Made by a program: the position numbers and the translations under genes. Below, one piece after another: positions 11,560 through 24,834 of a stretch of 64,000 bases of DNA; positions within the stretch are counted from its first letter, which is position 1, and the number at the start of each line of letters is the position of its first letter. Below the pieces are notes generated by a model. It ran no database searches, was not told the origin of the DNA, and was given only the letters and a program-made list of their open reading frames with translations. This DNA comes from Gordonia polyisoprenivorans (lineage in GTDB: Bacteria > Actinomycetota > Actinomycetes > Mycobacteriales > Mycobacteriaceae), in assembly GCF_017654315.1 (NCBI RefSeq), contig NZ_CP072203.1, forward strand, positions 3,968,001-4,032,000, in the 5' to 3' direction.

Positions 11560-11636
11560 GCCCTCGTAGCCCAATTGGCAGAGGCAACGGATTCAAAACC
11601 CGTCCAGTGTGAGTTCGAGTCTCACCGAGGGCACCA
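11560..11636 (+). tRNA. tRNA-Leu (anticodon CAA)
   Basis: The acceptor stem GCCCTCG pairs with CGAGGGC. The D arm is GCC..GGC, the anticodon loop TTCAAAA reads CAA (decoding UUG), the variable region is only CCAGT and the T arm is GTGAG-TTCGAGT-CTCAC. Discriminator A and an encoded CCA follow. A short variable arm is unusual for a leucine tRNA, which normally has a long one. The 3' 43 bases are duplicated at 24792-24834, showing that the gene is the integration site of the 13.2-kb element; the present 3' half came from the element. Confidence 0.9.
11592..11634 (+). repeat. attL core (43 bp, inside tRNA-Leu)
   Basis: Identical over 43 bp to 24792-24834, starting TTCAAAACCCGTCCAG and ending CCGAGGGCAC. 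It covers the anticodon loop to the acceptor stem. Flanking bases differ on both sides, so 43 bp is the whole core. Because the intact tRNA 5' half is here, this copy's 3' half is element-derived. Confidence 0.93.
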
Positions 11637-11638
11637 TG

Positions 11639-11662
11639 AACCCCCTGTTCAGCAGGGGTTTT
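11639..11662 (+). terminator. Rho-independent terminator after tRNA-Leu (element-supplied)
   Basis: CCCCTG (11642-11647) pairs with CAGGGG (11653-11658) around a 5-nt loop and is followed by TTTTCT. It lies inside the element and resembles the chromosomal terminator at 24839-24859, so the element carries its own copy of the tRNA terminator as well as of the tRNA 3' end. Confidence 0.75.
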
Positions 11663-11699
11663 CTGGTGTCTGGGTGTCGTCCAAACGGTGTCAATGTAG

Positions 11700-11718
11700 C
11701 CCCCGTGCTACCCACACG
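11700..11718 (+). repeat. Left arm-type repeat near attL
   Basis: A CCCCC run followed by GTGCTACCCACACG matches 24635-24653 near the other end in 18 of 19 positions and in the same orientation. Paired repeats just inside both att cores are what integrase arm-binding or excisionase sites look like. The function is inferred. Confidence 0.6.
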
Positions 11719-11796
11719 GCGTGGCGTGAATGGCCCGGTAAGCTCATCCGCCTAGAATCTGCGTCAATACAGACTCGCAAGACAAAGGCGACCTCA

Positions 11797-12393
11797 ATGA
11801 CCGAGAAGCAAGACCTTGACTCCGCGATCACGGCGATGGACCGGATCGCCGAGGCAGTCAAGAAGTTCGACGATGCAGAATTGCGCGCCCAGGCGTTCGG
11901 GATTCTCAGCTCGACAGTATTCGCAAACGGTCCGGCCCAAGTCTCTCGACAGACCCCACCACCGCCACGCGACTCAGGCGATGCTGTAGAACGAGAAGCT
12001 CCAGCGGAAAAGGTCAAGCCTGCGAAGAAGGCCACTAGCAGGAAGGCCGGGGCAAAGAAGGCGAATTTCGAGGTCCCAAAAGATATTAACTTCGCGCCGG
12101 ATGGGGAGAAGTCGTTCAAAGATTTTGCGGCCGAGAAGTCGCCCACCAGCAATAACGAGAAAGCGCTTGTCGCAGCATACTACCTGACTGATTACCTAAA
12201 AGAACAGGTCACCATAGGAAAAGTAATCGCCGCCTTCAGAGCTGCCGAATGGCGATCACCAGCCAATCCCGACAACAATCTACATCAGACGGGCAGCCGG
12301 GGTTGGCTCGACACTAAGGATATGTCCAACATTGAAGTGGTTTGGAGTGGACGCAACTTCGTAGAGCACGACCTTCCGAAGAAGAAACCGTAG
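11797..12393 (+). CDS. Unknown protein, first gene of a HEPN-linked cargo pair
   Basis: 198 residues. Residues 1-45 are a helical segment (LDSAITAMDRIAEAVKKFDDAELRAQ). Residues ~50-95 are a Pro/Lys/Ala-rich, histone-tail-like linker. The C-terminal ~95 residues (NNEKALVAAYYLTDYLKEQ ... GSRGWLDTKDM) form a compact domain I do not recognise. Base composition is visibly more AT-rich than the chromosome. The next gene starts 3 nt after its stop, so the two form an operon. The position between attL and the integrase is a usual cargo spot in satellites. The role is unknown; defence is a guess based on the partner. Confidence 0.7.
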   Translation: MTEKQDLDSAITAMDRIAEAVKKFDDAELRAQAFGILSSTVFANGPAQVSRQTPPPPRDSGDAVEREAPAEKVKPAKKATSRKAGAKKANFEVPKDINFAPDGEKSFKDFAAEKSPTSNNEKALVAAYYLTDYLKEQVTIGKVIAAFRAAEWRSPANPDNNLHQTGSRGWLDTKDMSNIEVVWSGRNFVEHDLPKKKP

Positions 12394-12396
12394 CGC

Positions 12397-13143
12397 GTGA
12401 TCAGTCGCGATCAGACACTCGGCCATCTTCCTGCTCCCCTTCGCATTGAATTGCTGGCCGAGTACGACAAGGTCACAACCAATTACCGTGAAAGCCGATG
12501 GGAAGCGAGCGAGCTGAACGGAGGGCGGTTCTGTGAAATCGTGTATTCGATCCTCGAAGGATATACAAGCGGTTCATACCCAAAGTCCGCATCCAAGCCG
12601 CGAAACTTCAAGCGCGCATGCGAATCTCTCGAGAACCAGTCCCAATTCTCCGACTCGGTACGGATGACGATTCCCCGCGTTCTCGTTGGGCTGTATGACA
12701 TCCGCAATCGCAGGGGCGTTGGGCACGTCGGTGGTGACGTCGACGCGAATCAAATGGACGCGGAGTACGTTCTCCACGCAGTCCAGTGGATCATGGCTGA
12801 ACTCGTCAGACTATTTCACAGTGTTTCGGTGAATGAAGCATCAGATACGATCACTGCAATAGTGGAGCGCACAAATCCACTGGTATGGGAGATAAACGGC
12901 AAACGTCGGATCTTGAAGCCAGGTATGAGCTTGTCGGACAGTACCTTACTTCTGATCTACTCGTCCACTGGTCCAGTTTCCGAAACAGATCTAGCAGACT
13001 GGCTCGAGCAAGACCGTTTGCCGAACTACCGTAGGGTTCTCACCCGACTGCATTCACAACGCATGATCGAGTACAGCGGCGGAGTCGCAATACTCTCACC
13101 TCTCGGCACAACGCAAGTTGAGGAGCATCTCTTAACTCCCTGA
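12397..13143 (+). CDS. HEPN-like protein with C-terminal winged helix; candidate defence gene
   Basis: 248 residues from a GTG. Residues ~85-145 contain LYDIRNRRGVGHVGGDVDANQMDAEYVLHAVQWIMAEL split over two helices; R103 and H110 form an R-x6-H arrangement resembling HEPN RNases and the C-terminal domain of abortive-infection proteins. Residues ~170-245 look like a winged helix ending in a classic wing (RVLTRLHSQRMIEYSGG). It is coupled to the upstream gene and overlaps the end of the convergent integrase gene by 12 nt. Composition is AT-rich relative to its neighbours. Anti-phage function is inferred, not shown. Confidence 0.72.
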   Translation: MISRDQTLGHLPAPLRIELLAEYDKVTTNYRESRWEASELNGGRFCEIVYSILEGYTSGSYPKSASKPRNFKRACESLENQSQFSDSVRMTIPRVLVGLYDIRNRRGVGHVGGDVDANQMDAEYVLHAVQWIMAELVRLFHSVSVNEASDTITAIVERTNPLVWEINGKRRILKPGMSLSDSTLLLIYSSTGPVSETDLADWLEQDRLPNYRRVLTRLHSQRMIEYSGGVAILSPLGTTQVEEHLLTP

Positions 13144-14541
13144 TCTCCGTCGGGATAACTGGATCACGTTTGACGGCTCAGACACTGTCGACGCGCGAGC
13201 TATGGTCGGTTCGGGCAGGTTGTTGAGCGCGCCGCCGTCTTCACTCGGTATCCAGTCGCCGTAGGTGTCCAGTGTCAGGCTGTAGTGCGCGTGGCCGAGC
13301 CATTGCGACACCTGCATGAAGTGGACCCCGGCCGATAGCTGCATGGTGGCGAACGTGTGGCGGCTGTAGTCGTGCAGGCGGACGCCTCGCTGGGCGGGCT
13401 GGCCGTCGCGGGCCGGGCAACTTACCGGCAAACCGCTCTCAACCAGCGCCGGAGCAAGAATCGTCTCGAACCACGTCCCCAACTCGGGCGGCTGCGACCA
13501 ATCCAGCTCGGCCACGGTGCGCTCACCCTTCACCCGGCGTCCGCCGTTCTTCCGCGACGGCCACAACGACGCTGTCGGCTCGTCGGCGCGGGGATGCTCC
13601 ACAACGTAGGCGCGCACCCGTTCGGCCAGCCACGGCGGCAAGGGCACCGACCGACGCGACTTGCGGCTCTTCGGGGTGCTCGTCACCCACTGCCCGCCCT
13701 TCCGATCCTTGGTGCGCCGGACATGCACCGTGCAGAGAGTGGTTCCGGACACGTCTGGGCCGGGGCGCGTGGTGAAATCCATGTCCTGAATCTCCAACCC
13801 GGCGCATTCGGCCTTGCGTAGTCCCGAGTACGGCAGGAAGTGCGCCAGCAACTCGTAGACCGGATACCGCTCCCCCACGATTCGGGCCACTGCGGCGATC
13901 TGCTCGGCGGTCAGCGGGTGATGCTGGAACGCTTCGCGGTCGCCCACGGCGTGCCCGGTGCTGAAATCCACCTGCTCGGTCGGGCTGACAGGGATAGCGC
14001 CGTGTCGCGTCGCGTACTTGAGGACTGCCCTCAGCGCGAGCCAGGCGTGCTTCACGGTTTTCGGGGCGAGGTTGCGCGCTGCCAGGTCAGCGAGGAAGTG
14101 CTCGCAGTCCCGAGGGCTGACACTGGCGACAGCCTGACCGCCGAATCGCTCTAGCGAGTAGCGCCGCAACACCTTCTCGTAATCGTCGAGGGTGCGCTGC
14201 TTCAACCGACCCTGAGCCACCTTGACCTGCTGGCTCTCGATCCACGCCTGCGCGTAGTACCCGAAAGGCAAGTCACCAGCCTTCCGCTGTTCGGCCAGGG
14301 CGCTTGTCTGTCCGGTGTGCCGAGCCAGATTCAGTTCGTCGCGACGGGCCTCGGCGTCCTCGCGGGTTCCAAACGATTCCTGTCGGTTGCGGGTGCGCTT
14401 GCGGCCGTCCGGCATCGCCGCGTCAAAAGGAACTGGCAGCCCGTAGGCGTCGCGCTCCACCTCCTTCCAGATGACGCGATACGTCTTGACCGGCTTCCCG
14501 CGCTTGCGGTCCTTGGTCTCGTAGGTCTTGATCCACGCCAT
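13132..14541 (-). CDS. int: Tyrosine recombinase (integrase)
   Basis: 469 residues. The N-terminus (1-70) is arm-binding-like. Residues ~95-180 are a SAM-like core-binding domain. The catalytic domain shows Arg I in LPYSGLRKAECAGLEI, HxxR in RLHDYSRHTFAT, and the His and nucleophilic Tyr in WLGHAHYSLTLDTYGDW. It begins at the ATG at 14541, sharing one base with the serine recombinase stop (TAATG), so the two are co-translated. It is expected to integrate the element at tRNA-Leu. Unlike many integrases it is ~1.5 kb from the nearer att core, with the cargo pair between. Confidence 0.95.
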   Translation of the reverse strand: MAWIKTYETKDRKRGKPVKTYRVIWKEVERDAYGLPVPFDAAMPDGRKRTRNRQESFGTREDAEARRDELNLARHTGQTSALAEQRKAGDLPFGYYAQAWIESQQVKVAQGRLKQRTLDDYEKVLRRYSLERFGGQAVASVSPRDCEHFLADLAARNLAPKTVKHAWLALRAVLKYATRHGAIPVSPTEQVDFSTGHAVGDREAFQHHPLTAEQIAAVARIVGERYPVYELLAHFLPYSGLRKAECAGLEIQDMDFTTRPGPDVSGTTLCTVHVRRTKDRKGGQWVTSTPKSRKSRRSVPLPPWLAERVRAYVVEHPRADEPTASLWPSRKNGGRRVKGERTVAELDWSQPPELGTWFETILAPALVESGLPVSCPARDGQPAQRGVRLHDYSRHTFATMQLSAGVHFMQVSQWLGHAHYSLTLDTYGDWIPSEDGGALNNLPEPTIARASTVSEPSNVIQLSRRRSGS

Positions 14542-15197
14542 TACGCGGCCTCTTTCGCTTGTTCGATGGACTTGCAGATACGGCGGACGGTGGTGGCCTG
14601 CCAGGTAGGACGACCCGCTGGGCTGAGTTCGCCTGCTGCGGTGAGTTCGGCGGCGATAGCACCGAAGCTGAGGCCCTCTTCTCGCATCCCGACGATGCGA
14701 CGAGCCACGACGGTGGACACGAGGCGCGGCCTGCCGAGCGTGACGCCTTGAGCCTTCTTCGCTGCGAGCGCTGCCTTGGTGCGCTCCCCGATGAGACGCC
14801 GCTCGAACTGGGCGAACGTCGCGAGCATGTTGGCCATCGCTTCGCCGCTGGCCGTGGTGGTGTCGACCTGGACGTCGAGCATGATCAGCGACCAACGCTG
14901 TGTGCGGGCGCGCTCCATGATCTCGGCGGCGTGGACAACGCTACGAGCGAGCCGGTCCAGCTTGGTCACCACGAGCCCGTCAGCAAGACCCGCCGACAAC
15001 TGGGCCAGAGCGCTACGTAAGCCGGGATTGACCTGCGAACCGGACAGCCCCTCGTCCCGAAGGATGGTCAGTTCCCAGCCTCGGCGCGCGGCTTCGGCGT
15101 GAAGCGCGGCCTCCTGAGCCTGAATGCCAAGGCGGCTGTCGGCCTGCTCTTCAGTGCTCACTCGCACGTACCCGATCATCACTTTCGCTTCGTTCAT
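14541..15197 (-). CDS. Serine recombinase (resolvase/invertase family)
   Basis: 218 residues. The catalytic domain (1-140) begins MIGYVRVSTEEQ with Ser14 as nucleophile, and contains DEGLSGS and VVTKLDRLARS, the Arg-rich active-site helix. The C-terminal ~50 residues are a helix-turn-helix (SFGAIAAELTAAG...WQATTVRRI). The length fits small resolvases rather than large serine integrases. Co-encoding with a tyrosine integrase is unusual; it may resolve multimers of a replicating form or invert a segment. No res site pair was identified. Confidence 0.93.
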   Translation of the reverse strand: MNEAKVMIGYVRVSTEEQADSRLGIQAQEAALHAEAARRGWELTILRDEGLSGSQVNPGLRSALAQLSAGLADGLVVTKLDRLARSVVHAAEIMERARTQRWSLIMLDVQVDTTTASGEAMANMLATFAQFERRLIGERTKAALAAKKAQGVTLGRPRLVSTVVARRIVGMREEGLSFGAIAAELTAAGELSPAGRPTWQATTVRRICKSIEQAKEAA

Positions 15198-15265
15198 TTC
15201 CTTTGTCTCCCTTGGTGGTTGAGGCTCTAACGTCCGTTTGCGCCTTACGCCTCAGCCTACTTTCG

Positions 15266-15281
15266 AGTGACATAGATCACA
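15266..15281. promoter_or_regulatory. CRP/GlxR-like operator upstream of the recombinase operon
   Basis: AGTGACATAGATCACA matches the actinobacterial cAMP-receptor consensus TGTGANNTANNTCACA at 11 of 12 fixed positions. It lies 68 bp upstream of the serine recombinase start, within an AT-rich stretch that must hold the promoter. Regulation by a host CRP/GlxR protein is inferred. The rest of the 240-bp gap 15198-15437 shows no other gene. Confidence 0.5.
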
Positions 15282-15437
15282 ATCTATTCGGAACTGGAAT
15301 AGCTTGTCCGACAGAGCAATTGACTCGTTTTGCCGTTGAGATGGGGCGTGAGGTGCGCGGGTGCCGCACCGGCGTCATTGGGCCGTCGGTGGCGACGCCA
15401 GAGGGCCGAGACACCCCTCGCCGTGGGTGGCGCTGGC

Positions 15438-15758
15438 CTACGGCGCGGGCGGGCGTTGGTCCGCAGCACGCAACTGTTCGAGGGCGTCTTCCATCGGCAA
15501 CAGCTTCCTCGGCACGCGAGGCCCGACCACCGGAGGGGACGACGACTCAGCCGACGCGGACACCGGCTCGGCGTCGTCTTCCTCGTCGCGCACTTCCGCA
15601 GCCAGGGCGCGGTCGTCGAGGCGCTTCACCGCGACAATCTCGTCGTACACCCATCGCGGGTATACCTTTGGCACGTAAGGCTTTCCGTAGTCGCCAGTGA
15701 ATCTTTCGTGCCGTCCCGAATCCGTTCTGCCCGAACGCTTTCCACGCTTACTCGTCAT
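15438..15758 (-). CDS. Small hypothetical protein of the element
   Basis: 106 residues from the ATG at 15758, with an AAGGGA site upstream. The N-terminus is very basic (MTSKRGKRSGRTDSGRHERF). A middle motif KPYVPKVYPRWVYDEIVAVKRLDDRALAAEV is followed by an acidic stretch (DEEDDAEP) and a Pro-rich linker. No family was recognised. Its site between the recombinases and the Rep gene suggests a DNA-related or accessory replication role, without proof. Confidence 0.6.
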   Translation of the reverse strand: MTSKRGKRSGRTDSGRHERFTGDYGKPYVPKVYPRWVYDEIVAVKRLDDRALAAEVRDEEDDAEPVSASAESSSPPVVGPRVPRKLLPMEDALEQLRAADQRPPAP

Positions 15759-15794
15759 CGTCCCAATTCCCTTCTGCTCGAACGCTTTCCACGC
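15725..15794. repeat. 23-bp direct repeat across the start of the small basic gene
   Basis: TTCTGCCCGAACGCTTTCC plus ACGC at 15725-15747 recurs at 15772-15794 with one change (22 of 23). One copy is inside the coding sequence and the other in the leader. It looks like a local duplication. Confidence 0.7.
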
Positions 15795-16031
15795 CCAACT
15801 TTGTAGTGATCCGTCTCGCGCGGAGCTTGTGTCTCTCTCCACGATGTGCTCCAAATCAGGCCGTTTGGCCGCTGGTTTGTACCAACCTTTGCCTCAACGA
15901 CAATTCCCTGTTGTCGGAGGACTCGTTGTTGCTGTCGGTTCGAACACGGTCGGCCTGCACTCTGGTGAGTGCGGAGTCCGTGCGCCCCTCTCGATTCCTG
16001 CGGCCCGTATCCGGGATCGTGATGTGCGTTG

Positions 16032-16189
16032 ACCCATGCACCCATGCTGGGCATAGGTAGCGCCCACCACCCCGGCCCGGCACCCGTGCCACCCCACCAC
16101 CCATGCGCCCCCTACGGGGGCTGGCATGGGTGGGTTGGGGTGTGGCCCTGCACCCATGCGGCATGGGTCCAGCATGGGTCGGCATGGGT
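16032..16189. other. Iteron-like repeat cluster, candidate replication origin
   Basis: The 8-mer ACCCATGC occurs at 16032, 16040, 16099 and 16152, and its complement GCATGGGT at 16124, 16161, 16172 and 16182. Degenerate copies lie at 16051 and 16082. A perfect hairpin GCCCCC-TAC-GGGGGC (16107-16121) sits in the middle. The cluster lies between the small basic gene and the 3' end of the Rep gene (24 bp away). Clustered short repeats beside a replication gene are typical of iteron origins; the function is inferred. In the remaining part of the gap (15759-16031) I see no gene. Confidence 0.65.
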
Positions 16190-16213
16190 ATGGTTTTCGG
16201 GCCTCTCGACGCG

Positions 16214-18556
16214 TCATCTCTCCCCATCCTCGACTGTCTCAACAAAGCCTTTCGGGCGAGTTCGGCCACGGCGAATCTTGTCGGGCTTGCCTGCAGAGCC
16301 GGGCTCAAGGACCAGATAGCCCCGAGCCACACACCGGTCGATCGCCTTGATCGTGTTCGCGTGCCCGATCCCGGTGTCGGCCTCTTTCAGCTTCTGCTTC
16401 GACACCCATGCGTCAGCACTGTCCTTGCCTGCGAGCATCTTCCAGGCGGCGCAAGCGATCTTCAGATCGTCGTGGACTTGCCGGTCGGCCACCTTGCCGC
16501 CGCTGTTCTCATCTACTCGCAGCGTTCGGGTGGCACGGTCGTAGGTCAGGTTCAGCCGGTCCACCACGTCGATACGTCCCACTCCCGACAGATAGCGTCG
16601 GTCGTCGGGCGGGAAGTCGCCCGGTTTGCCGCCATGCTCGTAGGACAAGATCACTTCGGGATCACCCTCGATGGCCGACGATCCACGCGCCCGTGCCCTC
16701 ATCCCTTCCACGCCATGACCGGCGTGATGGATAACGAACGCCGCACGACATCCGGCCTCTTTCATAATCTCTCGCAGCGCCGCCCAAAACGGATTGACGT
16801 CCTCGGCCTTGTCCTCGTTTCCGCGAATGATCTTTGAGAACGGGTCAAGAACCCAGAACTTCACGTCGTTGTCGCGCAGCCAAGTGATCGCCCACTCTCG
16901 CCACACGGGGACTTCGATATCGACGTGATCGCCTACGCAGTGATAGAAGTGCACCCGCGCGGCGTCAGCCTCATCGTCGAATACGCCGTGCTCGCGGCAC
17001 CAATGCTCATAGGTCGCGGTGGACACCTCCGCGTTCCAAATGCCGACGTTGCCGGTGTCGAGGTGTGTAGTCAGTTTCCCGAAGAGTGGCTGGCCCGAGA
17101 CGACAGCTTTCACGATATTCACGCCGACGGTGGACTTACCGGTCTTGTTCTGCGCAGACAGCAACGTCACGCCCTCGCCAATCACCAACCCTTCGACCAA
17201 GTGCGGCGGCTCCACAGCCGGATCGTTGATCGCCGTCAGCCCACTACGAGTAATCGGCGCTCGCCACTCCCGGACCGCTCGGTTCCGGCGGGCGATCTCC
17301 TGGGCCTCCATTCGCATCTCGGCCTCGACCGCCAGCTGCGCGACACGATGCTCGCGGGTGTCGGCCTCCGACCGCAACGGATCGGCGAAACCCTTCTTCA
17401 CCAGATCGCTTGCCGCAGCTTCCATGTCACCGTCGAAGTTCAGCTGCGCGTACGCACCGAACTTGCTGTACGTCTCGTCATCGCCGGTCTCGAACACCGT
17501 GGACGACGAGAACACGTACAGCAGGCCACTACCGTCGAAGTTGGTGGTCGCGCTCGTCCCTGAAGCCTTACCGGGGCGTGTCCACCGATCGCTCTCAGCG
17601 GTGCTGTGATCGCGCCGCCACCCATGCGGACACAGAATCTCGTCCCAGGTAGTCACCGCCGCCCACGCATCACCCGGACGCGCACCTGGCACGCCCTGTC
17701 CAACACGAGAGCTCAGCTCGGACCGACGCTCGCTCTTCGCAGCTTTCGGAACCCGCTGATCCTGCAGACGCGCCATCGAAAACATCGTGTCTCGCAGGTC
17801 GGCCGACACCTCATGCAACCGGTCAGGAGCCGGCGACAACAGACCACCGACGTAACCGCCGCCGCGACGCCGCTCAGCCAGCGCACGATCTAACAACACC
17901 ACGCCCTTATCGGGATCGAGCCGCCAATTCCGCAGAGGCTCGGCCACCAAGTACTCCGGCAGACTGGATCGCTCGTAAGGGCGACCGGTGGCGTGAACAG
18001 CAGGATCACCACCGGCCACCACCGCAAACCCGCCCACCCCGCGCGTCTCAATCAGCACCATCGAGGTTTTGGCCGCGCCATGCTCAAAGCCTTTGAACAC
18101 CGCGCTGTCCTCGTTGGACTTATCGACGCAGGCCAACCGGGTATTTCTCCCCGGCTCGGGGGTCCGGTAGATCAGATGCCATCCACCGCCACCGCTGCGA
18201 GCCAAATAACCGTCGCAAATCTTGCGGAGGTCGTCGGCATGTCCTTCGGCCACCATGTCGCGGACCCACCGCACGAACACCGGCTCGGTCTCAAACTCCA
18301 ACAGCTCAATCCCACCGACACCGGTAACAATCCCCAGCCCGCGATGCAGGCCGAACCACGTCTCGATCTGCGCCTCGCTGGGTTGTTCGGATTGATACCG
18401 CTTCCATTCCGTCGCGGGAGCCTTGCTGCCATCAACCCGCATAGGAATCGGGGCGGAACCGAGTTCTCGCCAACGCTGCGCTGTCGCCTTAATTCGGTTC
18501 TGGCCCTGCCTATTACGGTCTAGCTTCGGATTGTGGGCAGGAGTATCGTTGCTCAC
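16214..18556 (-). CDS. Bifunctional primase-polymerase / RepA-like helicase of the element
   Basis: 780 residues from the GTG at 18556 (AAAGG site 7 nt upstream). Residues ~20-210 resemble a bifunctional primase/polymerase domain: GLGIVTGVGGIELLEFE carries acidic residues of the metal site and SGGGGWHLIYR is the conserved His-containing strand. Residues ~295-395 (WDEILCPHGW...) look like the linker found in such proteins. Residues ~450-650 are a RecA-like ATPase with Walker A AQNKTGKST (467-475) and Walker B VKFWVLDP. The C-terminus has a winged-helix-like region (WVSKQKLKEADTGIGHANTIKAI). It would unwind and prime the element's origin, probably the adjacent repeats. Confidence 0.85.
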   Translation of the reverse strand: MSNDTPAHNPKLDRNRQGQNRIKATAQRWRELGSAPIPMRVDGSKAPATEWKRYQSEQPSEAQIETWFGLHRGLGIVTGVGGIELLEFETEPVFVRWVRDMVAEGHADDLRKICDGYLARSGGGGWHLIYRTPEPGRNTRLACVDKSNEDSAVFKGFEHGAAKTSMVLIETRGVGGFAVVAGGDPAVHATGRPYERSSLPEYLVAEPLRNWRLDPDKGVVLLDRALAERRRGGGYVGGLLSPAPDRLHEVSADLRDTMFSMARLQDQRVPKAAKSERRSELSSRVGQGVPGARPGDAWAAVTTWDEILCPHGWRRDHSTAESDRWTRPGKASGTSATTNFDGSGLLYVFSSSTVFETGDDETYSKFGAYAQLNFDGDMEAAASDLVKKGFADPLRSEADTREHRVAQLAVEAEMRMEAQEIARRNRAVREWRAPITRSGLTAINDPAVEPPHLVEGLVIGEGVTLLSAQNKTGKSTVGVNIVKAVVSGQPLFGKLTTHLDTGNVGIWNAEVSTATYEHWCREHGVFDDEADAARVHFYHCVGDHVDIEVPVWREWAITWLRDNDVKFWVLDPFSKIIRGNEDKAEDVNPFWAALREIMKEAGCRAAFVIHHAGHGVEGMRARARGSSAIEGDPEVILSYEHGGKPGDFPPDDRRYLSGVGRIDVVDRLNLTYDRATRTLRVDENSGGKVADRQVHDDLKIACAAWKMLAGKDSADAWVSKQKLKEADTGIGHANTIKAIDRCVARGYLVLEPGSAGKPDKIRRGRTRPKGFVETVEDGER

Positions 18557-18675
18557 GTCTGGCCTTTCAGATGTGTGTAGAGGTGCGGAGACCGCCGACC
18601 GTCCTGCCCAACAAGACCGGTCGGCTATCGCCGCGTCAGAGTTAGACTCCGTTGCGCCACAACGGAGGTAAGCTG

Positions 18676-19068
18676 TTAGTGATCGGTAGCGCTGGTCACA
18701 GGAGAAGTCCCCGCTCTCCACGAGGCCCGCTCTTCGCCCAGCGTTGAGCGGGCCTCACCCGTTGAGAAGCCCTGCGGGGTGCCGCTACGGCCTACCGCCA
18801 CCGCCAGCCCGCCACGCGACCTGTCAGACGCCGGGGACAGCCGTCGCAAGGGCCGCACTACCGGCGCGGGCACGCCGCACACGACCTCGTCAACGATCTC
18901 GAACGCCTCCACCAGACGGACGCCGCGCCTCCGGGACACCAGCCACTCCCGACCCCGCTCGTCTACCGCGATCCTCACGCCCCACCGCCACACGATCTTC
19001 TTCACGAAGCCCAACAGAAGGTCCGGATTCTTCGGACACGCCGCCCCCGCCACGATCGCCGTCTTCAT
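18676..19068 (-). CDS. Hypothetical protein of the element
   Basis: 130 residues from the ATG at 19068, which overlaps the upstream stop (TGATG) and has a GGAGG site. Residues 1-60 (KTAIVAGAACPKNPDLLLGFVKKIVWRWGVRIAVDERGREWLVSRR, here joined across segments) look protein-like. The last ~60 residues are Arg/Ser/Gly-rich and could be weakly constrained. It is not recognised. It is part of the leftward operon leading to Rep, which starts 119 bp further on. Confidence 0.5.
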   Translation of the reverse strand: MKTAIVAGAACPKNPDLLLGFVKKIVWRWGVRIAVDERGREWLVSRRRGVRLVEAFEIVDEVVCGVPAPVVRPLRRLSPASDRSRGGLAVAVGRSGTPQGFSTGEARSTLGEERASWRAGTSPVTSATDH

Positions 19069-19766
19069 CACAGCCTCCGCTCATCAGGGAATCCGGCCAG
19101 AAACAGCCAGTCGTCCCAGCCACGGAGCCACGTCAGGCCGACGGGCATGTCGTTGCGGAACCGCGACTCGCAGCGGTCGCAGCACGCCATGATCCTGGTG
19201 ACGCCACCGCAGCCGAGCAACAGATAGGTGTCCAGGCGGACCTTTGACTTTGTGTCACAGAAGAAGCAGTCGTGAACGTAGAGAGCACGGCACACGAGTT
19301 CGGCCACTCGCTTCGGCGTCCAGTACGCGCTAACCAGAAACTCCAGGTTCCCGGCGTCCTTCACGCCGTAGACGACCACCGTCTCAATGGGACTGCCGCC
19401 GTACGCCGCAATGTCCGCAGCCTCGTCGTGTTCGTACTCGCAACGCAGAAACTCCGTGACGCCACCGCTCTCTCGTTTGGCCTGCTCCACCGACAGCCGC
19501 CGCAACTCGGTCTCGGATCGGCGGCGCAGAGGCAGGATTCTCCGCCCGCAGTTTGCCAAGGTGTACGAAGCCACCGGACCACGAGCCGGAACCACCGGCA
19601 TCTGCTGCGCCCGAATCATCGCCTGAGCGGTCGGCAGGTAGTTCGCCGCCTCCGGCGAGAACCAGACCTCCGGGTCGTGCGCGTTGCGGGGGTGGTTCAC
19701 GCGGTCTACAGCGTCGGCAATCGGGTCGGCACCCGGTTCAAACTCTCCGAAGGCAGGAAATCTCAC
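19068..19766 (-). CDS. Hypothetical protein with Cys-pair (zinc-ribbon-like) C-terminus
   Basis: 232 residues from a GTG that overlaps the upstream TGA (GTGA), with a GGAGG site. The C-terminal ~70 residues carry two CxxC pairs, CFFC and CDRC about 35 residues apart, with an extra CC just before the second, suggesting a zinc ribbon. The rest (DPEVWFSPEAANYLPTAQA..., GNLEFLVSAYWTPKRVAELV) is not recognised. It is co-transcribed with the excisionase-like gene and with Rep. A nucleic-acid-binding role is possible. Confidence 0.65.
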   Translation of the reverse strand: MRFPAFGEFEPGADPIADAVDRVNHPRNAHDPEVWFSPEAANYLPTAQAMIRAQQMPVVPARGPVASYTLANCGRRILPLRRRSETELRRLSVEQAKRESGGVTEFLRCEYEHDEAADIAAYGGSPIETVVVYGVKDAGNLEFLVSAYWTPKRVAELVCRALYVHDCFFCDTKSKVRLDTYLLLGCGGVTRIMACCDRCESRFRNDMPVGLTWLRGWDDWLFLAGFPDERRL

Positions 19767-20071
19767 TGGTCCTCCCCGGCGACAGGCCGAGCCAGCGACT
19801 CGATGAAGCGGACCACGCCCGCCGGACTGTAGGCGTTCTTGGCCGATAGCTTGAACACCTGGATACGACGCGCTTCGGTAGCCCGCCTGACGAGGCTCCG
19901 TGTTAGGTCGACGCCCAACTCTTCACGGGCAAAACGGATTACAGCTTCCACGCCGACAAGCATCGGTTGTTCGGACCACACCCGATTCGCGGGCTGCCGA
20001 TACGGGTCTCGGGGCGGTTGCTGAGGAGCGCCTGCCGGTCGGGCCGGGGCGACTCGTGCTGCTTGGGACAT
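19763..20071 (-). CDS. Excisionase-like winged helix-turn-helix protein
   Basis: 102 residues. After a Pro-rich N-terminus, residues ~38-95 read AVIRFAREELGVDLTRSLVRRA and RIQVFKLSAKNAYSPAGVVRFIESL, the pattern of MerR-like excisionase/AlpA wHTH domains (helix, wing, then YSxxxVxxFI helix). An AAAGG site precedes the ATG. It is the first gene of the leftward replication operon. It could be the recombination directionality factor or an activator of replication; both are inferred. Confidence 0.6.
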   Translation of the reverse strand: MSQAARVAPARPAGAPQQPPRDPYRQPANRVWSEQPMLVGVEAVIRFAREELGVDLTRSLVRRATEARRIQVFKLSAKNAYSPAGVVRFIESLARPVAGEDQ

Positions 20072-20494
20072 GATTGAGCCTTTCAGGATCTGACGAGGGC
20101 TCTGCTCGGTTGGTGAGGCGGCTATCGCTTGCCGCCGTACGTCACGTGCGCAGATATCTCTGGGTCAAATCCGGAGCCAATCTGTCCAAGTAGTCGTCCT
20201 GTCGTGCTCCGCCTAAAGCGGCTGTCCCTGGGACGCCTCAGCTATTCCGGTAAACTACACCGCTTGGCCGGTGCACCACCTACCCTACAGCATTGCGCAC
20301 CTATTGCCAAGCGCAGCGTACCCCATAGTCGTTGGTGCGCAACAGAATCCGAGCGTACAAGGTAGGTTCGGCTCTCATTTGGTCGCTGAGACATTTTCGG
20401 GGCCCGCCCCGCCACTCAGGCACCCCAACGGCGCGGCAAAAAAGTGATGAGAGTGGTTCGCGTGAAGGACGTAGCTCTGCAGATTGCTATTGCG
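20072..20494. promoter_or_regulatory. 423-bp regulatory gap before the replication operon
   Basis: No convincing gene is present. A 9-bp inverted repeat TTGCGCACC (20293-20301) / GGTGCGCAA (20334-20342) with a 32-bp spacer is a candidate operator for the XRE protein. The gap must also hold the leftward promoter for the excisionase-like gene and the 3' end of the lipoprotein transcript. A GC-rich palindrome GGGGCCCGCCCCG near 20399 could end the lipoprotein transcript. Confidence 0.4.
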
Positions 20495-20983
20495 CTACTG
20501 AGTGAGAGTGCCGCCGATCGTCTCCTGAGCAGCCTTGCAGGCGATGTCGCCCGGTCCGCCGCTATCGCCATCCGGGCACTCAACAATCCAGTTTGCGTCA
20601 GAGACGTATGCGGACTTGGTCGGACCCCGACGAATGCTGTTCCCGGCCGTCTTGGTCTGCAGAGCGCTCTGAGCTTGCGCGGGCTCACCGAACGTGAACG
20701 CGTAGACGTAGATACCTCCGCCGTTCTCCGGTCCGGTCTTGCATTTCGCTGCCGACTCAATGAACTCGGTCTGCGCGGGCATGACCTGTTCGTCAGTGCA
20801 TACAAACCCCTTGCCCGTCAGGTCTGCGATCAAGTCCAGGGCGATCGGCCATTCGGCGCTACCGACGGACGGCGCAGCCGCAACCGACGACGAGCCTGCC
20901 GACGGCTGCTGGTCGTCACTGCATCCAGCACTCGCCAGCACCAGGAGTCCAACACCGACGGTGGTAAGTAATGCGCGCTTCAT
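20495..20983 (-). CDS. Small secreted lipoprotein of the element
   Basis: 162 residues with a GGGAGA site before the ATG. The signal peptide MKRALLTTVGVGLLVLASAGC ends in the lipobox LASAGC (split for length). A Ser/Ala-rich linker follows, then a ~115-residue domain with four Cys (VCTDE, AKCKT, VECPD, IACKAA), so probably two disulfides. Similar-looking lipoproteins on prophages often block superinfection at the cell surface; that role is inferred. It faces the XRE gene across a divergent promoter region, as expected for a gene expressed in the integrated state. Confidence 0.8.
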   Translation of the reverse strand: MKRALLTTVGVGLLVLASAGCSDDQQPSAGSSSVAAAPSVGSAEWPIALDLIADLTGKGFVCTDEQVMPAQTEFIESAAKCKTGPENGGGIYVYAFTFGEPAQAQSALQTKTAGNSIRRGPTKSAYVSDANWIVECPDGDSGGPGDIACKAAQETIGGTLTQ

Positions 20984-21092
20984 GGATCTCCCTTTTGTTC
21001 ACTTGGTTGGTTCGACAGATATCTAACACCACCAGCCGATACGATGATTACACTCTGGACGGTTACAGTCGGGACGTATGGAGTAGGGCTCC
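20984..21092. promoter_or_regulatory. Divergent promoter region between the lipoprotein and XRE genes
   Basis: 109 bp, AT-richer than its surroundings, contains both start regions. TACAGT (21065-21070) could be a -10 for the XRE gene. The position is typical of a lysogeny-type control region where the repressor regulates itself. No clear palindrome was found. Confidence 0.35.
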
Positions 21093-21338
21093 GTGCCCGC
21101 CGACGTCAAACCTCCCCACAACGCCACCCTCGCGGCGTTCGGTGAGCGCGTGCGCGCACGTCGGCATGAGCTCGGTTGGAGTCAGGAAGTCGCCGCCGAT
21201 CACATCGGCATTCACTGGACACACCTCGGCCAGGTAGAGCGCGGCCAACGTAGTTCCCGCATCGAGAACGTCTTGAAGATCGCGGCCGGTCTGGATACGA
21301 CGCCAGGGCGCTTGCTGGACGGCCTACCGTCCGAATAG
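21093..21338 (+). CDS. XRE-family helix-turn-helix regulator
   Basis: 81 residues from a GTG with GGAGTAGGG upstream. Almost the whole protein is one Cro/C1-type HTH: FGERVRARRHELGWSQEVAADHIGIHW, then LGQVERGQRSSRIENVLKIAAGL. The length fits a compact repressor. As the only clear XRE regulator in the element it is the best candidate for its master repressor. It lies 54 bp upstream of the RNxxxH gene on the same strand, so an antitoxin-like role is the alternative. Confidence 0.88.
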   Translation: MPADVKPPHNATLAAFGERVRARRHELGWSQEVAADHIGIHWTHLGQVERGQRSSRIENVLKIAAGLDTTPGRLLDGLPSE

Positions 21339-21392
21339 ACGAACCGTCTTATGCCCCCTCGGAGTGTCCGGGGCCGACGCTATCGTCAGGGG

Positions 21393-22346
21393 ATGACCAA
21401 CGATCCAGACGACGACGTTACTGTCGAGGAAGTCTACAAATCTCCGTTCGGTATCGAGATGGAGCGGCGCAAGGCGCACATCGAAGCCTTGCCAGGCGCA
21501 CGATTCAAGGAAGACCTGGAAGCACTGAATCGTGCCTCCTATGTGTTCGGTACTAACGGTCAGGAGCTTGCCGCGCACGTCTGGAGATTCGTTAACTCGC
21601 AGATGAACGTGCAGAATCTCGACGACCAGTACGTGAACGAACTGGTGCGTCTTCTTCACAACTACCTAACGTCTGTCTCATCGCTCATCGACGCGCAACG
21701 CGTCGTCGTGCGGCATTGCTGGCCGGACGAGAAAGACCCCGAAAGGGTTGCTTTCCAAGCAGAATATGACAAACAACGCACGGGCACGTTCGAGACTGAC
21801 GAAGCCGCCTTTGTAACCAAGCTGCGGAACTATTGCACTCACTACGCGATCCCCCTCCCTGGCCTCGGCACGAGTATCAGCCACTCCTGGGGTGGCCCTG
21901 TAATTCAGGTGAATACGCTCCAACTTGATCGGGATAGACTCCTTCGATGGAGCGGATGGGGAGGATCCGCAAAGAGCTATCTCGGAGCCCAGCCTGACAA
22001 GTTCGACCTCGCCCCGATCATCGAGCGCTATATGGCCGCAACTCGTACGTTCTACGAGTGGTTCTGGAACGAGGTAAACGAACGCAACCGCTCAATCCGC
22101 GACGAGTTGCAAGAGAAAGCAAAAGAGCTGTTCCTCTGGCATCAAGAATGCAATTACATGCCCGATTGGTTCCACGAGGGTCGGGAATCTGGCCCACCAG
22201 GCTGGAGTGCCGCCCGAGACCTCGCGCATCTACGAGCTGAGCGTTTCGCCTACGGAACTCGCGGGTACGTCGCGCATATCGTGACGCGGGATGGTGTGAT
22301 CGAAATGCGAGAGGACCCCTGGTGGCCATTCCCGGATCGCGTGTAG
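21393..22346 (+). CDS. HEPN-like (RNxxxH) hypothetical protein
   Basis: 317 residues from the ATG at 21393. Two helices, VNELVRLLHNYLTSVSSLID (81-100) and AAFVTKLRNYCTHYAI (138-153), frame R145-N146-x3-H150, an exact RNxxxH motif as in HEPN ribonucleases. Residues ~190-260 are a long helical region (YMAATRTFYEWFWNEVNERN). The C-terminal third is not recognised. Codon use and AT content are atypical of the chromosome. A toxin or abortive-infection RNase is a reasonable hypothesis, but a short motif can occur by chance. Confidence 0.65.
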   Translation: MTNDPDDDVTVEEVYKSPFGIEMERRKAHIEALPGARFKEDLEALNRASYVFGTNGQELAAHVWRFVNSQMNVQNLDDQYVNELVRLLHNYLTSVSSLIDAQRVVVRHCWPDEKDPERVAFQAEYDKQRTGTFETDEAAFVTKLRNYCTHYAIPLPGLGTSISHSWGGPVIQVNTLQLDRDRLLRWSGWGGSAKSYLGAQPDKFDLAPIIERYMAATRTFYEWFWNEVNERNRSIRDELQEKAKELFLWHQECNYMPDWFHEGRESGPPGWSAARDLAHLRAERFAYGTRGYVAHIVTRDGVIEMREDPWWPFPDRV

Positions 22347-22649
22347 CGAGCGAGAACCCCGCCTCGCCGGTCCAGGACAGGTCGGTGAGGCGGGGTCTCG
22401 TGAGGACGCCCCCGGCTTGGGGTTCGGGGACGTCCTCGGCACGGGCGGGACAAGTCGACCGCGGTGCCAGGAGACGGACAAGTCGACGTCTCCTTCTAGC
22501 GAGAGAACCGAGGCTCCCGCTAGTTCTCGGCGGGTTGGGCGTTCAACCCGCCCGCTTGGTGGCCGCGCTGCGGCCCGTCTGGGGCGGCTGAGCTCTCGGT
22601 AGGCCGCTCTGCGGGGTGCGCCGGGTGCCCGTGGGTAGGTAGCGGCACC
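22347..22649. other. Hairpin-dense gap between convergent transcripts, with 12-bp direct repeats
   Basis: No gene is seen. Inverted repeats: ACCCCGCCTC/GAGGCGGGGT (22356-22365 / 22387-22396); GAGGACG/CGTCCTC (22402-22408 / 22431-22437) with inner CCCCG/CGGGG; GGAGAC/GTCTCC (22470-22475 / 22488-22493); GAGAAC/GTTCTC (22503-22508 / 22523-22528); GGCGGGTT/AACCCGCC (22529-22536 / 22545-22552). A 12-bp direct repeat GGACAAGTCGAC lies at 22448 and 22476. The first two hairpins can terminate the RNxxxH and capsid transcripts. The rest may be a protein-binding or packaging site. Confidence 0.6.
22351..22400. terminator. Strong bidirectional terminator-like hairpin
   Basis: CGAG-A-ACCCCGCCTC pairs with GAGGCGGGGT-CTCG around a 21-nt loop, starting 5 bp after the RNxxxH stop codon. 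It is the strongest of the stacked hairpins in this gap. Confidence 0.6.
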
Positions 22650-23012
22650 TCAACGCTTCAACCGGGTTCCGGCCGGCGATCGGTACCGAATTTTCATGGT
22701 GCCGAGGAGCTTGCCGACCTTGTAGCCAGCTGTGGTGGTGGCGGCGACATAGGCCGCCGACGCTGGAATGGTGTGCGGCACCGCTCGCGGTGCTGGAGCC
22801 AGAAACCCGACAGCCGCGCCCGCGAGAGCAGCCCGACGAACCGTGCGCTTGCGGCGCGCCTTGGCCGACCGGTGAGCCGCCGCGATCTCGGTGACGCCGT
22901 CTTCCGCGCGTCGTAGCGCGGCCTCGGCCTCGTCCAGCGCACTCAGCACCCGCTTACCGGGGGTCGCAGCGAAGCGGCCCCGGCTGTCGCGGATGTAGTT
23001 GCGCGCCTTCAT
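22650..23012 (-). CDS. Hypothetical protein, third gene of the capsid operon
   Basis: 120 residues from an ATG overlapping the upstream TGA (ATGA). It starts MKARNYIRDSRGRFA, a basic DxRGRFA-type sequence frequently seen in phage head proteins, then a helical segment (LDEAEAALRRAEDGVTEIAAAH), a basic stretch and an Ala/Val-rich, possibly membrane-associated region (~60-100). The end is basic. No family is assigned. Its place behind the capsid gene suggests an assembly or DNA-binding role. Confidence 0.6.
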   Translation of the reverse strand: MKARNYIRDSRGRFAATPGKRVLSALDEAEAALRRAEDGVTEIAAAHRSAKARRKRTVRRAALAGAAVGFLAPAPRAVPHTIPASAAYVAATTTAGYKVGKLLGTMKIRYRSPAGTRLKR

Positions 23013-23212
23013 GACGAACTCGGACGATTGCGCAACGCTCGGCGCTGTGTCAGTTCATCGGACATTGCTGCAATCGCCTCGGCGGTCTCCGCATTGACCT
23101 TGGGAGCCTTGCTCTGATAGCGACCGCCCTCGCTCGGCGGCGCGTCTTCGAGGCCCGGCGGGGTTAAACCGTCCCAGGAGAACTCGGAGGGAAACTCGGA
23201 TTTGGCCGACAT
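23009..23212 (-). CDS. Small hypothetical protein after the capsid gene
   Basis: 67 residues, starting 7 bp after the capsid stop and ending in an ATGA overlap with the next gene. It is hydrophilic, with a Pro/Glu-rich N-terminal half and a helix (NAETAEAIAAMSDELTQRR). The size and position are compatible with a small scaffold, decoration or head-accessory protein. No family was recognised. Confidence 0.6.
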   Translation of the reverse strand: MSAKSEFPSEFSWDGLTPPGLEDAPPSEGGRYQSKAPKVNAETAEAIAAMSDELTQRRALRNRPSSS

Positions 23213-23219
23213 GTCGGCG

Positions 23220-24377
23220 CTACTTCCAGTTCCAGGTAGGAGCTTCGTACGCGCCCGAAGCTTTGACCTGCACGATGCACGCTGCGCCTCGGTACCGGAC
23301 GCCCGTCCCGAACGAACGCTGGAAGAAGCTGTCCTGCAGCGGGTAGCGTTGATCTCTCCCTGGAATCATGCGCAAACCCCGGTACGCGGCGTTGGCGTGT
23401 TGCCGGAACGCAACCGGGTTGACGCCGCTGTTCACGCCACCGGTCGCCACGACGGCAACGTAGCCCTGCGGCAGGAAGTGCGACAGGACAACCCACGCCG
23501 GACCGTACGAACCGCTGACTTCCAGGCCGGACCACTCGGCGGGCGCGATCTGCCCGACGACGGTCTCGCTCGTGAGGTACGGGATGGAGCTGTTCGACGG
23601 GATGAAGTCATATTTGGAGACAATTCCGTTGGTGGTCTGCCCCGCCCTGAACTGCGCGATAACCTCGGACTCTCGGGGGTGGCACAGCACGATCAGCCGC
23701 GAAGCGCCGTCGATGCCGAAGCCCTTGGACGTGACCTGATTGATCGCGTCGGTGAGGTCGCCGGGATCGAGCGCGGTATTGCCGGACACGAGGTAGTGCG
23801 ACGTGTTCGACGGAAAGTCTTGGCCCGCGAACGACGGTGGGGTGATCCCGTCCGTCCCGGTGTAGAGGCCATAGGCAGTCTGCCCGACGTCGTTGAGGAC
23901 GGGAGCCGGATCGAACAGCCGCCGCAACAGCGTCCCGGTGATGAGTCGATTATCGGATTCCATGGCCCGATTGACGAGGTCGTAGACTTGTTCGGCGGTG
24001 GCGCTACGGAGGAATTTCCAGGTCGCCCGCGTGGCCAGGTCGTAGTCCTTGAAGGTATAGCCGACGATCAGCGCGTCCGGAGCGGTCGCGATACTCTGCG
24101 GCTCGCCGAATTCCGAGGCTTCCTCGAAGTGGTCCCCGCCGATGGTCTGCGGGATAGCGTCACCGACGGCGATGGTCGGGTAGCTGATCAACGCGGCCAA
24201 GGCGGTGCGCTTCCGATTCCAGGCCGACATGACCTGATTCGCCTCGTCCCAAATGACGTTGAGATCAACGCCGTCGGCCGTCTTGTTGACGAGGACGTCG
24301 CCTTGCGTGCTGTAGCCGCGAGCGTTGTCGCCGCCGAACGCGAAGAACTGCGCCGGGGCGGGTTGGATGGTGGACAT
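23220..24377 (-). CDS. HK97-fold-type major capsid protein
   Basis: 385 residues from the ATG at 24377. The features fit actinophage major capsid proteins: an N-terminal helical region without an obvious protease/scaffold domain, an A-domain-like segment (GVNPVAFRQHANAAYRGLRM) and the C-terminal pattern RYPLQDSFFQRSFGTGVRYRG followed by AACIVQVKASGAY, as I recall from this protein type. It is much longer than encapsulins (~270) and has no cargo-enzyme neighbour. It heads a three-gene leftward operon. No portal, protease or terminase is adjacent, so its shell would need helper parts. The assignment is from pattern recognition; a profile search is needed. Confidence 0.75.
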   Translation of the reverse strand: MSTIQPAPAQFFAFGGDNARGYSTQGDVLVNKTADGVDLNVIWDEANQVMSAWNRKRTALAALISYPTIAVGDAIPQTIGGDHFEEASEFGEPQSIATAPDALIVGYTFKDYDLATRATWKFLRSATAEQVYDLVNRAMESDNRLITGTLLRRLFDPAPVLNDVGQTAYGLYTGTDGITPPSFAGQDFPSNTSHYLVSGNTALDPGDLTDAINQVTSKGFGIDGASRLIVLCHPRESEVIAQFRAGQTTNGIVSKYDFIPSNSSIPYLTSETVVGQIAPAEWSGLEVSGSYGPAWVVLSHFLPQGYVAVVATGGVNSGVNPVAFRQHANAAYRGLRMIPGRDQRYPLQDSFFQRSFGTGVRYRGAACIVQVKASGAYEAPTWNWK

Positions 24378-24791
24378 GCTGCGAAACTCCGATTCGGTAG
24401 TAGATGAAAGCGAGAAATCCGCGACGTCTGGTCGACGGAAGCTCGGCCCTACCGAACTGGATGTGAAGTTGTCGGCGGAAACCCTCACGCCGTAGAACTT
24501 GCGGACGCTCACCAAACGAACCGCGAGCCGGTGCCGGGTACTGCCCAGCGATGCCGTACTGCCCGCCACCCTATGCCCCGCCCACGGCTCATCGCTAGCC
24601 TCAGCGCACCGAGTGACGCGCCGCTGCCATGCCACCCCCGTACTACCCACACGCGCCATCTCAACGGTGATCTAGCGGTAGCCGCTACTGAGCAATAGGT
24701 AGCGATTCATGCGGCCCTACCTGCGTCGATTCCTGCTGGTCGGCCTCGTTCGCGCTGGTCACCACGTCACCCAAATCGCACACCGCAGGTT
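24378..24791. other. Right-end region: capsid leader and repeated integrase-type sites
   Basis: No gene is seen. GTACTGCCC occurs at 24538-24546 and 24556-24564, and GTACTACCC at 24640-24648; the left end has GTGCTACCC at 11705-11713. These look like arm-type recombinase sites. The region must also include the leftward promoter of the capsid operon, which I could not place. Confidence 0.5.
24635..24653 (+). repeat. Right arm-type repeat near attR
   Basis: A CCCCC run followed by GTACTACCCACACG matches 11700-11718 in 18 of 19 positions, in the same orientation, 138 bp inside the attR core. Confidence 0.6.
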
Positions 24792-24834
24792 TTCAAAACC
24801 CGTCCAGTGTGAGTTCGAGTCTCACCGAGGGCAC
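24792..24834 (+). repeat. attR core (43 bp, orphan tRNA-Leu 3' end)
   Basis: Exact copy of 11592-11634. It lacks the tRNA 5' half and is followed by GCG instead of CCA, so it is the original chromosomal 3' end displaced by insertion. Confidence 0.93.

Follow-up and report, generated by a model that had tools for sequence, protein, structure and literature searches.

A type of phage satellite defined by an integrase gene together with a major capsid protein (MCP) gene has already been published for Mycobacterium, as candidate phage-inducible chromosomal islands (PICIs) that include the phiRv elements; 62% of these regions are also called by SatelliteFinder, whereas the four examples that are drawn are not (PMC10654092). 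The subject of the present study is an integrated element of 13,243 bp in Gordonia polyisoprenivorans (assembly GCF_017654315.1), which lies in a stretch of 64,000 nucleotides of contig NZ_CP072203.1 (positions 3,968,001 to 4,032,000, forward strand), called the window throughout and numbered from its first letter. Like the window element, the candidate PICIs combine an integrase and an MCP gene, with a tyrosine integrase in a tRNA gene and no full phage, and some have replication, terminase or scaffold genes in addition. They are defined by the two genes and have diverse capsids, whereas the elements described below have one MCP lineage together with a terminase small subunit (TerS), a serine recombinase and two partner proteins, w08 and w14, and are set apart by this description. 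The window element falls within the definition of a candidate PICI (integration machinery and an MCP gene, in something other than a prophage) and within that of a satellite in general, having an integrase and regulation but no full set of particle genes. Prophage elements of less than 15 kb in actinobacteria may also be satellites (PMC10023795).

Several other systems resemble the element in part. Capsid-forming PICIs (cf-PICIs) have their own MCP in a small integrated satellite, but this is accompanied by a protease, portal, connectors, large and small terminase subunits and HNH gene (PMC10690885), whereas the family of the window element has the MCP and usually TerS only. PICIs of the SaPI type share with the element an integrase, a repressor and their own replication protein (Rep) and origin, and with its relatives their own TerS, but SaPIs redirect the shells of a helper through scaffold proteins (PMC10690885), whereas the window family brings an MCP. 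The Streptomyces satellites MulchRoom and MiniFlayer are likewise actinobacterial and have capsid genes, but are described with terminase, portal, MCP, scaffold and adaptor genes, no known primase and virulent helpers (PMC10690885). The PICMIs of Vibrio are similarly small, with integration and replication genes and a helper which may be virulent and non-resident; as described they have no capsid-remodelling gene and are packaged as concatemers, whereas the window element has an MCP and so lies outside a definition that excludes capsid genes. The phages Patience (70.5 kb) and Adjutor (64.5 kb) have an MCP of the same family as the element (PDB 8giu and 8saj), and the TerS family of the satellites is common with Patience gp3, but both are full phages; Patience has a terminase, portal, protease, minor capsid protein and the small accessory protein gp4. 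In a comparison with other T=7 phages, their shells were described as having an internal diameter of 63 nm, holding 70.5 and 64.5 kb, respectively, with split hexamers bridged by gp4.

We propose, with a probability of about 0.72, that the window element is a phage satellite which supplies its own MCP (and, in most relatives, TerS) and borrows the portal, large terminase subunit (TerL), protease, scaffold and tail of invading Patience-like phages. What was observed is an integrated element with its own integrase, iterons, Rep and an MCP under purifying selection, in which no motor, portal, protease, scaffold, tail or lysis gene was recognised. A preliminary description of this DNA had called it phage-satellite-like, a view now supported by the recurrence of small elements and a polymorphic insertion site, while mobilisation by a phage is inferred.

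The element and its integration site

The boundaries given in the preliminary description were confirmed: the element lies between perfect 43-bp direct repeats, one of which is inside a tRNA-Leu(CAA) gene. Fifteen genes, numbered from the left, were called with a codon model for which the loci collected in this study served as training set (a 42-aa open reading frame at 24367-24495 was called but excluded from the list); all 15 were scanned with PHROGs and part of them with Pfam. The features on which the argument depends are as follows.

11560..11636, + strand: tRNA-Leu(CAA), intact at attL (ARAGORN)
11592..11634, + strand: attL core, 43 bp, zero mismatches to 24792-24834
24792..24834, + strand: attR core, 43 bp, zero mismatches to 11592-11634
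13132..14541, - strand: tyrosine integrase, 469 aa (phrog_1, E 6.8e-45; PF00589)
14541..15197, - strand: small serine recombinase of the resolvase/invertase type (PF00239, Resolvase, E 1.5e-39; phrog_125)
16032..16189, unstranded: iterons, eight ACCCATGC/GCATGGGT copies, probable replication origin
16214..18721, - strand: replication protein, polymerase/primase-like N-terminal part and AAA_25 (Pfam, PHROGs; start at 18556 or 18721)
23220..24377, - strand: MCP, 385 aa, Patience/Adjutor family (phrog_3990, E 1.2e-100; PDB 8saj, 8giu; start moved to 24377)

The integrase, Rep (AAA_25 and DNA polymerase/primase PHROGs) and capsid gene of the preliminary description all found family matches, as did its repressor (XRE). 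The serine recombinase, whose stop overlaps the integrase start by one base, had not been mentioned there, nor had w08 (a CxxC-CxxC protein), the two small genes behind the MCP or the HEPN-like cargo gene.

Two further genomes, G011 and G037, carry the same type of element at tRNA-Leu(CAA), the copy in G037 being spread over two contigs. In G027 the left flank is 94% identical and the right flank (from window 25410) follows about 390 bp behind the tRNA, with the element absent; since identity over the 43-bp core is no more than 79%, and G027 lacks the thioesterase gene adjoining attR, this is a nearly empty rather than a clean empty site. The site is polymorphic, with occupied and nearly empty states, as the preliminary description had anticipated, and G047 is occupied by a quite different satellite (L211, 1428-11793), a cf-PICI-like element of about 10.3 kb at tRNA-Leu(CAA) with HNH, TerL, portal and scaffold genes and a different type of MCP. 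Phage-like genes, including a head-tail adaptor Ad1, stand behind tRNA-Leu(CAA) in G031 (L209), the nearest relative by flank (97%). In G034 (C1:3431691-3484409) a second copy of the 3' part of tRNA-Leu lies about 52 kb from the tRNA, and there is perhaps a prophage there.

Related elements in other actinobacteria

A match to the MCP was found in 10 of the 59 genomes of the genus (the genome itself and two fragments counted). In a wider genome scan, 144 stretches had the pattern and 75 were confirmed, giving 74 loci with relatives from more than 20 named genera, among them Gordonia, Tsukamurella, Williamsia, Rhodococcus, Nocardia, Mycobacterium and its kin, Dietzia, Micromonospora, Nocardioides and Demequina. 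By their gene labels, most loci have a similar layout, in which an integrase, a serine recombinase, a TerS-type gene and a replication protein stand with small regulators and an MCP that is accompanied by one or two small genes; with the window included (75 loci), 60 have a serine recombinase label, 46 a tyrosine integrase and 57 TerS. The supposition that no standard family had this exact gene set thus has to be revised, as the set is not unique to the window.

To find the ends of the elements, each locus was examined for a tRNA with a second copy of its 3' part beyond the MCP. Sixteen of the 74 loci were closed in this manner, which with the window gives 17 elements of 8,590-13,699 bp (median 12,471 bp); their cores measure 21-56 bp and lie in genes for tRNA-Leu, Gly, Arg, Lys and Val. 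The 16 loci are a lower bound, since many of the remaining stretches contain no tRNA, and the survey covered up to 10 kb on each side of the MCP, so that elements above about 20 kb would escape it. Short cores (21-28 bp) belong to L041, L061, L078 and L085, and for L035, with two possible ends (10.2 and 13.6 kb), the shorter was taken. The element is mosaic: L024 and L212 are close relatives with an MCP 92-93% identical to that of the window, yet where the window has its Rep, integrase and serine recombinase, one or another of these is of a different kind in them.

The preliminary description would have been contradicted had close relatives carried the same genes within a longer prophage. Close relatives were instead seen to carry them in elements just as small, and a longer prophage containing the set was not found, so the reading as part of a long prophage was rejected. 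A defective prophage, left after the loss of its other structural genes, would account for the phage-derived MCP and integrase, for the decay of one relative at the same tRNA (L025) and for L067 in Rhodococcus erythropolis. There an MCP of this type lies near tRNA-Leu(CAA) without integrase, recombinase or TerS labels, and appears to be a lone MCP and probably a remnant. A remnant is nevertheless very improbable for the window, as a similar reduced set recurs in the 17 closed elements and most of the 74 loci, and as the MCP is under purifying selection and the satellite MCPs form a lineage apart.

The capsid protein lineage

The MCP tree held 150 rows (140 different), of which 69 came from genome loci and the window and 81 from viral contigs and two phages; it was obtained by a quick search with SH-aLRT support only, after removal of rows below 330 aa and of the duplicate loci L001-L006 and L010-L022. 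Among the rows kept, L062 does not differ from L063, and L007 and L036 come from one contig. On one side of a branch with SH-aLRT 100 are 68 satellite MCPs, that of the window among them, comprised of 66 genome rows and two from viral contigs (L097, L098) which were counted as satellites because none of the morphogenesis genes sought was there. Three more (L086, L087 and L090; two Nocardioides and one Intrasporangiaceae) fall among the phage MCPs in the free tree, while the single clade for all 71 was not rejected, with an approximately unbiased (AU) test p of 0.70 and a likelihood 24.8 higher. From these trees one origin for all 71 satellite MCPs is possible but not proven, and a second capture of a phage MCP in the three is possible as well.

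Against three Gordonia relatives the window MCP has a dN/dS of 0.09-0.16, i.e., it is under purifying selection. Distances between MCPs correlate with those of TerS (r 0.68, 54 loci), the serine recombinase (0.46, 55 loci), w08 (0.35, 54 loci) and the integrase (0.33, 39 loci), and none of 500 shuffles reached any of these values.

A structure model of the window MCP (mean pLDDT 71.5, poor in the N-terminal 37 residues and in the stretch 88-126) matched Adjutor 8saj (39% identity, E 1e-32, TM 0.64) and Patience 8giu (38%, 1e-30, 0.62) with large rmsd, and a sequence search of PDB returned only these two. The next structural match was at 1e-7, with encapsulins lower in the Foldseek list. Their shared HK97 fold is what could suggest an encapsulin-like compartment on an integrative element in place of a DNA-packaging shell. 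Such a compartment is scarcely credible, since the two phage capsids (38-39% identity) are by a wide margin nearer matches than the encapsulins, and since most relatives carry a TerS homologue.

Compared with phage MCPs, the satellite MCPs have a shorter N-terminal region, gaps of three residues at window residue 162 (G-loop region) and of two residues at 271, and one additional residue at 81; residues of the E-loop region diverge as well. The discriminating positions in this comparison were chosen after the fact and with no test against chance. Window residue 164 corresponds to Q171 in the G-loop of Patience. At the position of Patience E78, described as stabilising the stretched E-loop, 71 of 79 phages have E, whereas D is found in 49 and E in 17 of the 71 satellites. 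In Patience the stretches which differ make contacts, so that the satellite shell may plausibly have a geometry other than those of Patience and Adjutor. Loss of the Patience metal site was also considered as a mark of the satellites and rejected as not diagnostic: all 150 MCPs have H200, and histidine is retained at position 198 in 39 satellites and at 224 in 40 (of 71), vs. 68 and 69 of the 79 phages.

Search for motor, portal and tail genes and for a helper

No TerL, portal, protease, tail or lysis family was matched in the window (PHROGs for the 15 genes, Pfam for part of them), in agreement with the preliminary description as regards TerL, portal, tail and lysis genes, and no scaffold gene was recognised. 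Hidden Markov models (HMMs) were built from the phages Suzy, Papyrus and their kin. In 80 viral contigs these recognised TerL at 39 loci, portal at 47, scaffold at 75 and minor capsid protein at 78. Neither TerL and portal nor scaffold, protease and tail genes were found by them at the 74 genome loci and in the window; the only matches were three loose ones, of two small models, in L040, L052 and L056. As the control of these models on L211 was imperfect, PHROGs was used besides. Among 150 of the 164 pooled-element proteins of at least 60 aa (integrase, serine recombinase and MCP excluded), the 25 commonest of 96 families included primases, excisionase-like regulators and terminase small subunit, with no TerL or portal, and 20 large proteins (all those above 300 aa except clustered replication proteins and TerS) likewise gave neither in the best 25 of 26 families. 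The same search recognised TerL (3.2e-82), portal (4.1e-100), scaffold (9.2e-5) and another type of MCP in L211. With L211 as the positive control, the protease, portal, connectors and TerL of its own that define a cf-PICI were thus found neither in the window nor in the pooled elements.

In the whole host genome, no TerL was found by three models (PF03237, PF03354 and phrog_2) as a sign of a resident helper prophage; a helper would therefore probably come from outside, and induction of resident prophages to mobilise the element, as had been suggested, would probably fail. This MCP family is present in 152 phage records, by name mostly of Mycobacterium (63), Gordonia (46) and Microbacterium (38), and the 60 listed are all 56-72 kb.

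The terminase small subunit and partner genes

Four genes of the window bear on DNA selection and on the partners of the MCP.

15438..15758, - strand: w05, 106 aa, at the position of the relatives' TerS, with TerS likeness confined to the C-terminal tail
19068..19766, - strand: w08, CxxC-CxxC protein, recurrent among the related satellites
22650..23012, - strand: w13, 120 aa, with an RD..GRFA start, second gene behind the MCP
23009..23212, - strand: w14, 67 aa, with the SEFSW...GGRY motif, directly behind the MCP

In many elements a gene between rep and the serine recombinase matches the terminase small subunit families phrog_10899 (best 5.5e-10) and phrog_2538. An HMM of this TerS, built from 13 satellite copies, found 73 proteins at E <=0.01, including gp1 of Papyrus and the products of viral-contig genes that lie upstream of TerL, and Patience gp3 matches it at 5.5e-11; both Papyrus and Patience are phages of the same MCP family as the satellites. 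By this HMM TerS is present in the 57 loci mentioned above, and a six-frame search for the missing TerS in the window gave weak matches only. At its position is w05, which is open in four Gordonia elements and whose 17-residue tail scored 23.3 against the TerS tail in hhalign (best of 30 column shuffles 15.9), at a low probability of 11.5%; w05 may, with doubt, be a shortened or replaced TerS. In L028 (17522-19426) the TerS gene is split by two opposite-strand genes which by eye resemble an insertion sequence.

Of 77 satellite loci (the window and L023-L098), 58 have relatives of w08 with its two CxxC pairs, and no relative was found at any of the 80 phage loci, although the family was gathered in eight HMM rounds without convergence and may contain drift. 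Across 40 aligned members the CxxC-CxxC columns show little or no variation, and in Nocardioides- and Demequina-type elements w08 lies between the MCP and TerS. A protein search with the window w08 returned four relatives only, actinobacterial wherever named; one relative had no tblastn match in 50,697 phage records, and a structure model of w08 (pLDDT 75) had no PDB match at E <=0.001. The w14 motif, SEFSW.G.L.PP....PP..GGRY, marks a family in 29 of the 77 satellite loci and in no phage loci at E 0.001 (counted from the hit list with the duplicates L001-L005 omitted; the HMM was made from 19 of the 29 matched loci), and a relative again gave no tblastn match in the 50,697 phage records. No homology of w14 to Patience gp4 was detected (HMM vs. 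gp4 E 2.2; PDB search of w14 empty), and a role similar to that of gp4 is a guess. No family match to a capsid-remodelling scaffold protein was found, and w08, w13 and w14 are without assigned function.

Probable replication origin and serine recombinase

Between w05 and rep, eight exact copies of ACCCATGC/GCATGGGT (a complement pair) lie within 158 bp, where 0.54 would be expected and none of 5000 Markov-1 sequences reached eight, in line with the iteron-like origin of the preliminary description. The decaying relative L025 keeps the end of the window Rep (98.6% over 142 codons) and also has an eight-copy iteron cluster, whereas no cluster was found near the differing Reps of L024 and L212. 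The iterons thus track the Rep type in four elements, which supports an origin read by this Rep; the cluster is probably the replication origin. The Rep probe found no relative among the viral contigs, and its best kin in phage records (24 records) are about 31% identical over half its length.

In 38 pairs the serine recombinase is upstream of the integrase, on the same strand and no more than two genes away; in 24 of them the gap is -4 to 3 bases. This arrangement could serve to resolve concatemers, and 66 kb, the length of five 13.2-kb copies, falls in the range of the Adjutor and Patience genomes; head-to-tail copies might then be packed in full-size helper shells, as in PICMIs, with the MCP used otherwise. 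We consider this improbable because PICMIs, as described, have no capsid-remodelling genes and a conserved MCP of the element's own would be pointless. For the satellite with its own shell, volume scaling from T=7 gives a T=4 shell of about 24-30 kb, which would hold roughly two of the largest elements (13.7 kb each), and the element may therefore travel as dimers that are resolved by the adjoining serine recombinase.

Cargo and remaining genes

The other genes of the window element are given below.

11797..12393, + strand: w01, cargo, 198 aa (gene call; no convincing family match)
12397..13143, + strand: w02, cargo, 248 aa, R-N-x5-H at residue 103 (no convincing family match)
18676..19068, - strand: w07, 130 aa (gene call)
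19763..20071, - strand: w09, small putative helix-turn-helix/excisionase-like protein (homologues in several satellites; no convincing family match of its own)
20495..20983, - strand: lipoprotein, 162 aa (signal and lipobox by eye; homologues in L024 and L025)
21093..21338, + strand: XRE-type repressor (family match)
21393..22346, + strand: w12, cargo, 317 aa, R-N-x3-H, HEPN-like

Two earlier assignments were upheld in part. For the lipoprotein, the signal and A-S-A-G-C were seen by eye but a lipobox pattern search did not match, and the excisionase-like w09 has homologues in several satellites but matched no family convincingly in Pfam or PHROGs. A gene with a lipoprotein signal adjoins the XRE repressor in several satellites (L029, L030, L032 and L051, and by eye the window); superinfection-exclusion genes sit likewise in some prophages.

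There are 119 homologues of w12 (the window's own included) in several actinobacterial genera, and R145, N146 and H150 are invariant in 18 aligned rows (the window and 17 homologues). We take R-N-x3-H to be the HEPN ribonuclease motif, which the R-N-x5-H of w02 presumably resembles. No PADLOC model matches w01, w02 or w12; on its conserved residues w12 is a candidate for defence. In other elements, proteins found singly among the 150 pooled match restriction, AbiTii, TIR and GmrSD families.

Such cargo would also suit an interference island, whose MCP and TerS-like protein would poison the assembly of the helper or divert it and so protect the host population, with particle spread secondary; an MCP without scaffold or portal could indeed be a dominant-negative subunit. 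However, a pure poison would be expected to track the helper MCPs closely, whereas the satellite MCPs are a lineage of their own over many genera; w08 and w14 recur as partners, and replication genes and an origin are kept. An interference island is, on balance, unlikely.

Discussion

In the satellite reading, infection by a Patience-like phage would lift repression, upon which the integrase would excise the element at the tRNA site and Rep copy it from the iterons. The satellite MCP would then assemble on the helper portal and scaffold to form a shell taking satellite DNA, into which the DNA would be moved by helper TerL; it would be selected by the satellite TerS in most relatives, and by w05 or the helper TerS in this Gordonia sublineage. 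A helper tail would be joined to the particle, and the serine recombinase would probably resolve multimers from replication or packaging into monomers.

Several points weigh against this reading and it should be considered with these in mind. A helper, excision, induction, particles and DNA packaging are unobserved. No scaffold was recognised in the window element, and MCPs of the HK97 type normally need one. The TerL and portal HMMs of Suzy, Papyrus and their kin missed those of L211, so absence is not shown by the HMMs alone, and the PHROGs result for the pooled proteins rests on the best 25 of 96 families. The window lacks a complete TerS, and selection constrains w05 less strongly (dN/dS 0.40-0.49). 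L025, in the same tRNA, is decaying, with a stop in the MCP, another in the integrase and Rep cut short, and six of the 75 loci, some of them short contigs, have no TerS, serine recombinase or integrase; some copies are therefore dead or remnants.

The integrase and MCP type of satellite is that published for Mycobacterium (PMC10654092), whereas the present MCP lineage with TerS, w08 and w14 appears to be new. A literature search, with most subscription papers and preprints outside its scope, found no description of this combination. We tentatively suggest, as possible though less probable than the satellite reading as such, a third mode of capsid piracy between those of SaPIs and cf-PICIs, in which an old lineage would swap only the shell subunit (and TerS in most members) and have it assembled on the helper portal and scaffold.

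If this is correct, the shell subunit would be exchangeable alone while the helper keeps portal, motor and tail. As the closest shells, those of Patience and Adjutor, are solved and 38-39% identical, the determination of capsid size would then be directly testable, whilst the phage records of the MCP family point to the helper group and the cargo offers candidate defence genes.

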